DNA from: a virus
Direction: 5' to 3' (one strand)
Virus record (IMG/VR): IMGVR_UViG_3300043621_000114
Span: 1 to 26,020 of that record
Length of the DNA stretch: 26,020 nucleotides
A program made the position numbers and the translations under genes. Under the pieces are notes generated by a model. The model had not been told where the DNA came from, did not search any database, and saw only the letters and a list, made by a program, of their open reading frames with translations. Positions 15,001 through 22,182 of the stretch are shown one piece after another (positions within the stretch are counted from its first letter, which is position 1; every line of letters begins with the position of its first letter).

Positions 15001-16631
15001 TTGATCAGGCCGAAGGTGAAGCCGGCCTCGGTATCGGCCGCCACGACACAGTCGAGCACGTGCGCCTCCTTCTTCTTGGGCGTGTGCCCGGCTTCCTTGT
15101 CACCCGAACGCTTACGGTAGTCGATCAGCTGGTCGGTGCGGAAGCGCTTGAAGAAGTCCTTGCCGGGCTTCAGCCAGTCCAGCCCGGCGAGCTCCTTGAG
15201 GCCCTTCTTGAGGACCTGCGAGGCCGGCGGCGGCACGATCATCGAGGCCACCGCATGGCTGAACAGCTTCTCGCGGTTGGGCTTGGAGAGCTCGCAGAAC
15301 TCCTCGTAGGTGAGCCGGCTGCGCAGCGCCTTGTCGTGCGCCTCGTCGTTCTCGACGAAGGCCTCGCCGTCGTATTCCTCGCCGAGCCGCTTCCACCTGG
15401 CCCGGCTGCCGTTGTGCTCGAAGGCGACCGCGTTGTAGCCGATCCAGCCGCCGCCGTAGAACTGCTGGGCGATCACCAGATACTGCACCAGGGCGAGCGG
15501 CGCCTTGCCGGCCGAGACCTGGTTGAACAGCGCTGCGGCGGCCAGCCCGTTGACGATCTCATGCTGCGCCGGCGACCACTCGGTGCACTTCAGCGGCTTG
15601 GGCTCGGCCTCGGTGGTGTCGGCCGCCGCGCCGTTCTTGGCCTTCTTCACCGCCGCCTTCTCGACGGTCTTGCGTTCCACCATGTTCTCGTGGACCTCTA
15701 TGTGCCCATGGTGGTCAGCCTTGAAAAACACCGTGAGCTTGGCGCGCTGCTCGGGCGTGCGAACCTTGCCTTCAAACTCGACGTACTTCTGCAGGGTCTG
15801 CCAGTCGTCGCGGTCGAGCACCTTCACCGCGTTGTAGCCGAGCTGCTGGTACTTCTCGACCTCCTCGGCCGCCCACGCATCCTGGAGCTCCGCAAACTTC
15901 CGGGCATCGAGCAGCCAGATCCCGGCGAGGGGCTGATCATGGTCAGCAAAGAGGTCGCGCTGGATCAGCTTTTCCGGGTAGAGAGCGAGATCGAAGTTGG
16001 CGACGGCAGCGCTGATTTTCTTTTCCGTCATAGCGCTGTGGATCTGGCCGATGTGCACGTCCAGCTTCTTGTTGCGCTTGAGGAAGGCCTTTTGCTGATC
16101 GGCCGACCCCAGCGTGAAAGCCATCGCAGCACCAAGGCCAATCTTGCCCTCACGAAAGACCTCCTTCACTTCGGGGGCCAGCTGAGCAAGTTTGACGCGC
16201 TGCTCGAGCCAGCGTTCGTCCTTGCCGAAGCGAAGCGCGATCGCTTCCTTCGTCTCGCTCTCTTTGGCGAGCCGCAGGATGGCCTCGCACTCGTCGAGCG
16301 GGTGCATCGGCGTGCGTAGGTTGGCGTGCAGCGACACCTCGAGGCCCTGCATGGTCGACGCGCCGTTGTTACGCACGCGGCACTCGATCTCGGTAAAGGT
16401 CTCGCCGGCGATCAGGCCCTCCTTGATGGCATGGCGGATCGCCAGCAGGCGCTGCGCGCCGTCGACGACGTCCCACTTGCCGCCCTCGACCGCATCGACG
16501 GTCAGCGGATAGAGCAGCCCGACGCTGGCGATCGAGGCGACCAGCGCCTTGTCGACAGTGTGGTCCTTGCGCGCATTGGTCTTGGTGATCTTGAGCTCGT
16601 CGATTGGTACCCAGACAGACTCGTTAGCCAT
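14997..16631 (-). CDS. ParB-family DNA-binding protein
   Basis: 544 residues; the ATG at 16631 has GAGGAGG six bases upstream, better than an upstream in-frame ATG. The N-terminal ParB/Spo0J domain is clear: VWVPIDELKITKTNARKD (6-23), a SIASVGLLYPLTV helix-strand (33-45), and VVDGAQRLLAI (55-65), where GAQR stands in the place of the CTP-contacting GERR motif. NLRTPMHPLDECEAIL (104-119) matches the second conserved box. Residues 126-150 (KEAIALRFGKDERWLEQRVKL) form the helix-turn-helix. The remaining 350 residues include an unusual, Lys/Glu-rich C-terminal part with no family recognised. Chromosomal ParB proteins bind parS and slide along DNA as CTP-driven clamps; phage relatives act in partition or as regulators. 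No ParA-type ATPase gene is visible in the window. A consensus parS lies at 21896. Confidence 0.85.
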   Translation of the reverse strand: MANESVWVPIDELKITKTNARKDHTVDKALVASIASVGLLYPLTVDAVEGGKWDVVDGAQRLLAIRHAIKEGLIAGETFTEIECRVRNNGASTMQGLEVSLHANLRTPMHPLDECEAILRLAKESETKEAIALRFGKDERWLEQRVKLAQLAPEVKEVFREGKIGLGAAMAFTLGSADQQKAFLKRNKKLDVHIGQIHSAMTEKKISAAVANFDLALYPEKLIQRDLFADHDQPLAGIWLLDARKFAELQDAWAAEEVEKYQQLGYNAVKVLDRDDWQTLQKYVEFEGKVRTPEQRAKLTVFFKADHHGHIEVHENMVERKTVEKAAVKKAKNGAAADTTEAEPKPLKCTEWSPAQHEIVNGLAAAALFNQVSAGKAPLALVQYLVIAQQFYGGGWIGYNAVAFEHNGSRARWKRLGEEYDGEAFVENDEAHDKALRSRLTYEEFCELSKPNREKLFSHAVASMIVPPPASQVLKKGLKELAGLDWLKPGKDFFKRFRTDQLIDYRKRSGDKEAGHTPKKKEAHVLDCVVAADTEAGFTFGLIK

Positions 16632-20942: not shown

Positions 20943-21464
20943 TTAGAACGGGATGTCTTCGTCCGCCATCTGGCGGCCGATGCGCGCCGCCCGCTGCTCG
21001 GGCGTCTCGCTGCCGGCGCGCTCGCCGTCGGCACCGTGCTCGGCATCGCCAGCCGGTCGGCGCACACCGCCCTCATAGCTCTCGGTGTCCTCGCCACGGC
21101 GCTCGCCGTTCGGCCGGCCGCCCAGCATCTTGATGGTGCTCTGCGGCCCCAGCTTGACCTCGAAGCTGTAGCGGTCGGCTCCCGACTGGTCGATCCACTT
21201 GCGGTTCTGTGGCGTGCCCACGATCATCACCAGCTGGCCCTGCTTCAGGTACTTGGCGATGAGCGACGTGATCAGCCCGGTCTCGCCCTGCTGATAGGCC
21301 ACGATGTTGAACCAGTTGGTCTTCTGCATGCGCTCGCCCGACTGGCGGTCAAGCCACTGCTCGTTCACCGCGACGCTGAAGTTGGCCGCGGTGGCGCCGT
21401 TCGGCAGATGGCGGATCTCCGGGTCACGTCCCAGATTTCCGACAACCGTGATCTGTGCGTACAT
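20943..21464 (-). CDS. ssb: Single-stranded DNA-binding protein
   Basis: 173 residues; ATG at 21464 with AAGGAG six to seven bases upstream. The OB-fold is textbook: ITVVGNLGRDPEIRHLPNG (5-23), ANFSVAVNEQW, TNWFNIVAY, and YLKQGQLVMIVGTP, followed by a disordered Gly/Arg/Glu-rich linker (110-165) and the acidic tip DEDIPF, which is the docking site for partner proteins in bacterial SSBs. It coats single-stranded DNA in replication and recombination. The full C-terminal tip and normal length indicate a functional protein. It ends a transcript at the terminator 20809-20847. Confidence 0.97.
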   Translation of the reverse strand: MYAQITVVGNLGRDPEIRHLPNGATAANFSVAVNEQWLDRQSGERMQKTNWFNIVAYQQGETGLITSLIAKYLKQGQLVMIVGTPQNRKWIDQSGADRYSFEVKLGPQSTIKMLGGRPNGERRGEDTESYEGGVRRPAGDAEHGADGERAGSETPEQRAARIGRQMADEDIPF

Positions 21465-21878: not shown

Positions 21879-21895
21879 TGCATCTCCTCTAAACG

Positions 21896-21911
21896 TGTTT
21901 CACGTGAAACA
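21896..21911. promoter_or_regulatory. Perfect consensus parS (ParB-binding) site
   Basis: The 16 bases are TGTTTCACGTGAAACA, a perfect palindrome identical to the conserved chromosomal parS consensus bound by Spo0J/ParB in most bacterial phyla. It lies in the 43-base gap between two leftward genes, outside coding sequence. No other copy was seen in the window. The phage encodes a ParB-family protein, but its specificity is unknown; the host ParB is an equally plausible ligand. Confidence 0.85.
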
Positions 21912-21921
21912 GCTCTGAGGC

Positions 21922-22182
21922 TCACCACGCCTCGACCTCACGGATCAGCTTGACCGTCGGCTTGTGGGCGTTGGGACCGACAATCGCCTGCACATAGACG
22001 GTCTGCCGGCCATCGAAGATCGAGACCCACGTGCGGTGGGCCTTGGGATCGCTCTTGGCGGTGATGAAGACCCAGCGCTTGCGGTCCTTGGTCATGCCGG
22101 TGATCACGTCGGGGTAGATCTGGTCGCGCTGGAAGCGCCAGACCTCCCACTGGTGGCGATCGGGTCGCAGCGGCGCCATCAC
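21922..22182 (-). CDS. Unknown small protein, 86 residues
   Basis: The start is either a GTG at 22182 (GTGA overlap with the upstream stop) or the ATG at 22179. The product has an N-terminal Arg/Trp-rich stretch (RPDRHQWEVWRFQRD), strands (RWVFITAKSDPKAHRTWVSIFDGRQTVYVQAIVG) and a short charged end. It looks like a small beta-rich domain. Not recognised. Its stop is 10 bases from the parS site. Confidence 0.65.
   Translation of the reverse strand: MMAPLRPDRHQWEVWRFQRDQIYPDVITGMTKDRKRWVFITAKSDPKAHRTWVSIFDGRQTVYVQAIVGPNAHKPTVKLIREVEAW

Follow-up and report, generated by a model that had tools for sequence, protein, structure and literature searches.

A perfect chromosomal-type parS site in a podovirus-like phage is a candidate loading site for host ParB

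A parS palindrome in an early-type operon

The stretch of DNA analysed here (hereafter, the window) is a 26,020-base IMG/VR virus record. Its plus strand carries podovirus-type late genes, including those for an internal virion protein, a tail fibre and an endolysin, and its minus strand carries an early-type block encoding RecE/YqaJ-type exonucleases, a ParB-like protein, DUF932, a single-stranded DNA-binding protein (SSB) and a SLOG protein. Judged by this gene content, the window is a podovirus-like phage. The initial annotation, made from the letters alone, had called it a phage, and the label is borne out both by the classification of the record as viral and by its virion, lysis and recombination genes, together with those for SSB and the ParB-like protein. 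The features around the site are collected in Table 1.

Table 1. Features of the parS locus and the phage ParB-like gene in the window
Feature	Positions	Strand	Evidence and remarks
Phage ParB-like protein, ORF of 552 codons	14997–16655	−	PHROG 1033, HTH_ParB PF17762; phmmer, Foldseek
SSB	20943–21464	−	Next gene downstream of gene B; PHROG 44, E 7e-34; Pfam SSB, E 1.6e-24
Gene B, 117 aa	21525–21878	−	First gene downstream of parS; 52% identical in G001, 35% in G002
43-base intercistronic gap, parS inside	21879–21921	no strand	ORF ends; G001 counterpart
Shine–Dalgarno-like AGAGGAG of gene B	21884–21890	−	Directly downstream of parS; read from sequence
parS palindrome TGTTTCACGTGAAACA	21896–21911	no strand	Exact match and orthologous site in G001
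Gene A, 86 aa, function unassigned	21922–22182	−	Directly upstream of parS; 60% identical in G001

Within an early-type operon, a 43-base non-coding gap between the stop codon of gene A and the ATG of gene B holds, as the initial annotation had it, a perfect chromosomal-type parS: all 16 of its 16 bases match, with no mismatch. The site thus belongs with the 16-bp palindrome and its variants at positions 1/16 and 5/12, and it does not lie near the oriC of a bacterial chromosome, the record being a virus with structural genes. The Shine–Dalgarno-like sequence of gene B is placed between the palindrome and the ATG. Gene B had no match in Pfam or PHROG.

No other site with three or fewer mismatches to parS occurs in the window, and shuffles of the window give an expectation of 0.01 such sites. 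At 67% GC, the base composition predicts 5.5e-7 exact matches in a window, so the earlier estimate of one chance match in 10^5 windows proves conservative. The exact match alone is nonetheless not proof, because a control palindrome was found in 11 IMG/VR stretches when about ten are expected by chance. What leads us to discount chance is the combination of an orthologous site in a related phage and a collection-wide enrichment of parS, which are described below.

Conservation in related phages

Scanning IMG/VR with the ParB-like protein, gene A, gene B and YqaJ gave three relatives with a common gene set, G001, G002 and G003. G001 is the closest relative found (67% identity in the ParB-like protein; genes A and B in Table 1), and its orthologous gap carries CGTTTCACGTGAAACA, identical to the window site except at position 1. 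Positions 1 and 5 are those at which chromosomal parS varies naturally (PMC5450999). Between the two phages the palindrome is identical at 15/16 positions, the 5′ flank at 11/13 and the 3′ flank at 7/17. Retention of 15 of 16 bases in roughly 70% identical DNA has a probability of about 0.03 under neutrality; with the 5′ flank also conserved, this comparison of sequences is by itself suggestive and not decisive.

G002 is more distant from the window phage than G001; no parS was found in it, and its short gene A-like ORF overlaps gene B, with no gap between them. In G003 the region of the parS gap falls outside the coverage of the record. Only one close relative with parS was found. The initial annotation had proposed searching related phages for the 16-mer at the equivalent gap and would have given up the idea if every close relative lacked the site or carried only a decayed form of it and neither host nor phage ParB bound it; G001 keeps it there, with its single change.

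Wider searches added little to this set. Megablast found no nearest phages, and a search of viral contigs for gene B relatives returned none. Profiles of gene A and YqaJ recovered from IMG/VR only the relatives already known, the ParB profile scan added only fragments that are 39% identical and without parS, and no YqaJ relatives were found in INPHARED. Relatives of ParB or YqaJ, sought in 84,980 genomes to find the host, were likewise not found.

Chromosomal-type parS across viral contigs

A pattern scan of IMG/VR finds exact parS in at least 120 stretches, and the Pseudomonas-type parS TGTTCCACGTGGAACA likewise in at least 120. By comparison, the control palindrome, which has the same half-site composition and a CACGTG core, occurs in 11, close to the count that a random 16-mer should give by our estimate of the size of the collection. 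Many of the listed parS contigs are short fragments, some of which may be host DNA. Among the matches listed, 67 of 146 parS sites lie in gaps, which make up 9.8% of the sequence; the control palindrome is mostly intergenic too (10/11), so we treat gap location as weak, supportive evidence.

The pattern of variation is more telling. The 120 listed loci contain 21 one-mismatch sites, with the mismatch at position 5/12 in 15, at position 1/16 in 5 and elsewhere in 1. Near-matches at position 1 or 5 are thus 20 of 21, and 9 of 10 among the matches listed when the array in contig L087 is set aside, whereas six control palindromes have zero exact or near matches in the same 120 loci. The tolerance profile of the viral sites is that of chromosomal parS, and it constitutes the strongest evidence that ParB-type recognition, rather than chance or a hairpin, maintains the sites.

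Shared proteins, mainly the terminase large subunit (TerL) and a portal-like protein, connect 41 of the 120 listed loci, and many of these 41 have parS just upstream of terL. Loci of this large clade with a perfect parS in the gap upstream of terL include L066, L083, L093, L097, L101, L119, L120, L027, L029, L042 and others. The TerL of the linked loci resembles those of two cultured Pelagibacter phages, HTVC027P (61%) and HTVC023P (53%). HTVC027P (MN698241.1) itself carries a one-mismatch parS, CGTTTCACGTGAAACA, at positions 16412–16427, in the gap between the genes for the small and large terminase subunits, and no ParB_N domain was found in it.

The sites also occur in groups. Clusters of three to five perfect parS are present in L017 (2657–3444), L044 (10535–11462), L053 (240–961) and L010; those in L017, L044 and L053 fall within about 1 kb, and those in L017 and L044 lie near terL. 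The largest array is on a 117-kb phage contig (G093; L087 in the list of loci; IMGVR_UViG_3300037518_000322, 116,662 bases), which has a terminase gene and, over the whole contig, 24 parS-type sites, nearly all TGTTTCACGTGGAACA and in one orientation. The 12 sites of the listed locus typically sit between a stop codon and the Shine–Dalgarno sequence of the next gene, a placement that they share with the window site. This contig, too, gave no ParB_N match. More generally, among the matches listed, the ParB_N domain is present in 4 of the 120 parS contigs, and the other 116 gave no match to it.

The phage ParB-like protein as a candidate reader

Two readers of the site had been proposed at the outset, the ParB of the host and a ParB-family protein of the phage. 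If it were the second, the protein would use the site either as its operator or within a ParA-less partition complex. This reading is supported by the protein itself, an HTH_ParB protein with a ParB N-terminal fold that is encoded about 5.2 kb from the palindrome and is present in both site-bearing phages; at that distance, parS is not adjacent to a cognate parB. Both phmmer and Foldseek match the protein to ParB/Noc, the Foldseek match to Myxococcus ParB (E 9e-11) being drawn from a low-confidence AlphaFold model (pLDDT 49), too poor as a whole for an assessment of its DNA interface. PF02195 is only marginal in G001 and G002.

The residues that would read parS argue against it. Contacts were mapped by a gap-free phmmer alignment to Myxococcus and Thermus ParB, in Caulobacter numbering (PMC7383237). 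The phage protein retains G170, K171 and G201, but Q162 is replaced by K, S172 by D, R173 by E, N178 by Q and R204 by M, so the set of parS-contact residues is incomplete; of these, R173 and G201 are reported to be absolutely conserved in ParB orthologues (PMC7383237). Moreover, all four phages share G-[KQ]-D-x-[RK]-W-[LV]-[ED]-Q as their recognition segment, the helix being near-identical in G002, where no parS was found, and in G003, whose record does not reach the parS gap. The general scarcity of ParB_N on parS contigs points the same way. The parS of the window is therefore probably not read by the phage's own ParB-like protein, as far as its sequence allows a prediction, and we regard this reader as decidedly unlikely.

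Two further features of the protein were recorded. It has no match to the ParA-binding motif, defined as [LFI]G[KR]G[LFI] (PMC12704722), and its long C-terminal part, from roughly residue 300 onwards, is conserved in all four phages (for example, DFFKR.RTDQLIDYR.RSGDKEAG). We also considered whether CACGATCGCGATCGTG, a palindrome conserved in G002 and G003, might be what the phage ParB recognises, and rejected it because it apparently lies inside a reading frame and its match in the window, with three mismatches, is at chance level.

Other explanations of the palindrome

Less likely still, the palindrome could be the operator of another regulator, a phage repressor or a host transcription factor, whose CACGTG-centred sequence resembles parS by coincidence. 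Its position between stop codon and Shine–Dalgarno sequence is that of an intercistronic operator, and the similar sites of the 117-kb contig precede many genes in one orientation. Against this, the match to parS extends beyond the core to all 16 bases, the variants in viral contigs follow the tolerance of ParB at positions 1 and 5, and no sigma-70-like promoter was found around the site, a weak test in GC-rich DNA.

A chance match or functionless relict is very improbable. A collection of the size of IMG/VR should yield about ten hits to any such 16-mer, and the site is kept in one relative only; however, the expectation within the window is minute, and G001 has an orthologous copy although the 3′ flank of the gap has diverged. 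Finally, an intercistronic RNA hairpin for translation or processing between genes A and B, for which a self-pairing palindrome just upstream of a Shine–Dalgarno sequence would be suited, was rejected as scarcely credible: the z-scores for folding, −1.2 and −1.6, are weak, the two minimum-energy structures disagree with each other, the one base that differs between the phages disrupts the outer pair with no compensatory change, and control palindromes of equal pairing potential are rare.

Recruitment of host ParB

We therefore favour the other proposed reader, and consider it reasonably likely that the 16-mer is a genuine parS kept so that the chromosomal ParB of the host loads on phage DNA. 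Host ParB is the likely reader because the phage ParB-like protein lacks several contact residues, the universally conserved arginine among them, and neither ParA nor an integrase was found. ParA (PF13614) was found in none of the records G000–G003, which may be fragments, whereas the control was found in 14 of 14 genomes; no tyrosine integrase was found in any of the four records. The suggestion that the phage partitions as a phage-plasmid is weakened accordingly, since a parA gene and an integrase were found neither in the window nor in a 38-kb relative.

On bacterial chromosomes, ParB-CTP, once loaded at parS, closes and slides, and ParA and SMC act on the resulting ParB zone. By analogy, host ParB-CTP would recognise the phage palindrome and close as a clamp that would slide into the adjoining early genes (gene B and ssb), and the phage genome would thereby bear a mark typical of host chromosome origins. 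According to a review (PMC7022226), plasmids that would otherwise be unstable are stabilised by a chromosomal par operon together with one parS.

Several uses of such a mark can be envisaged, the most likely order being positioning or tethering, then operon control, then titration of ParB. First, ParA- or SMC-dependent positioning or tethering could place the incoming genome in the host nucleoid or origin zone and, by extension, segregate it should infection stall in a dividing cell; we put this use forward tentatively, with segregation as an option. Second, the ParB clamp could control the operon locally, a doubtful use that the intercistronic position favours. Third, host ParB could be titrated once genome copies are many after replication, which seems unlikely; SMC-mediated compaction or other uses, taken together, appear rather unlikely. 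A genome-level mark fits the observation that neighbourhoods differ across clades and that the number of sites ranges from 1 to 24.

Whether many unrelated phages without ParABS share recruitment of host ParB by host-type parS as a widespread strategy is a more tentative proposition, which we hold to be possible. In the open-licence literature that we searched, we found no description of host-type parS on phages that lack ParB. As a DNA element, parS ranks among the most conserved in bacteria, and ParB-CTP clamps, ParA action and SMC loading start there; phages that carry it would have the DNA positioning and condensation of the host at their disposal for 16 bp. If the proposition holds, copies of parS numbering from one to dozens (24 in the 117-kb phage) would make phage DNA resemble host origin DNA for the purposes of positioning, segregation, gene control or ParB sequestration, and parS in viral contigs would offer a sequence handle on phage DNA positioning in infected cells.

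Comparison with known systems

Phage-plasmids such as P1, N15 and the RedRock-type mycobacteriophages encode their own parA–parB and use a site-specific parS unlike that of the host. Like the window phage, they carry a partition-type site on a phage; in the window, by contrast, the parS is of the host type, and ParA and an integrase were not found. Start-associated repeats in phage operons are short repeats between the stop codon and the Shine–Dalgarno sequence of successive genes. The array of the 117-kb contig resembles them in placement, the repeat there being parS, whereas the window has a single copy. The Staphylococcus phage Lacachita has, as does the window phage, a ParB-family gene without ParA, and we found no chromosomal-type parS described for it (PMC10286716); compared with such ParB-only phages, the window phage has a ParB-like protein without parS-contact residues. 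Finally, set against bacterial chromosomal parS of the Spo0J/ParB ParABS system (consensus TGTTTCACGTGAAACA), the window site differs in lying on a phage, beside an early operon and without parA or a nearby parS-reading parB, but it consists of the same 16 bp, and the positions at which chromosomal parS tolerates change match those that vary in the relatives and in other viral contigs.
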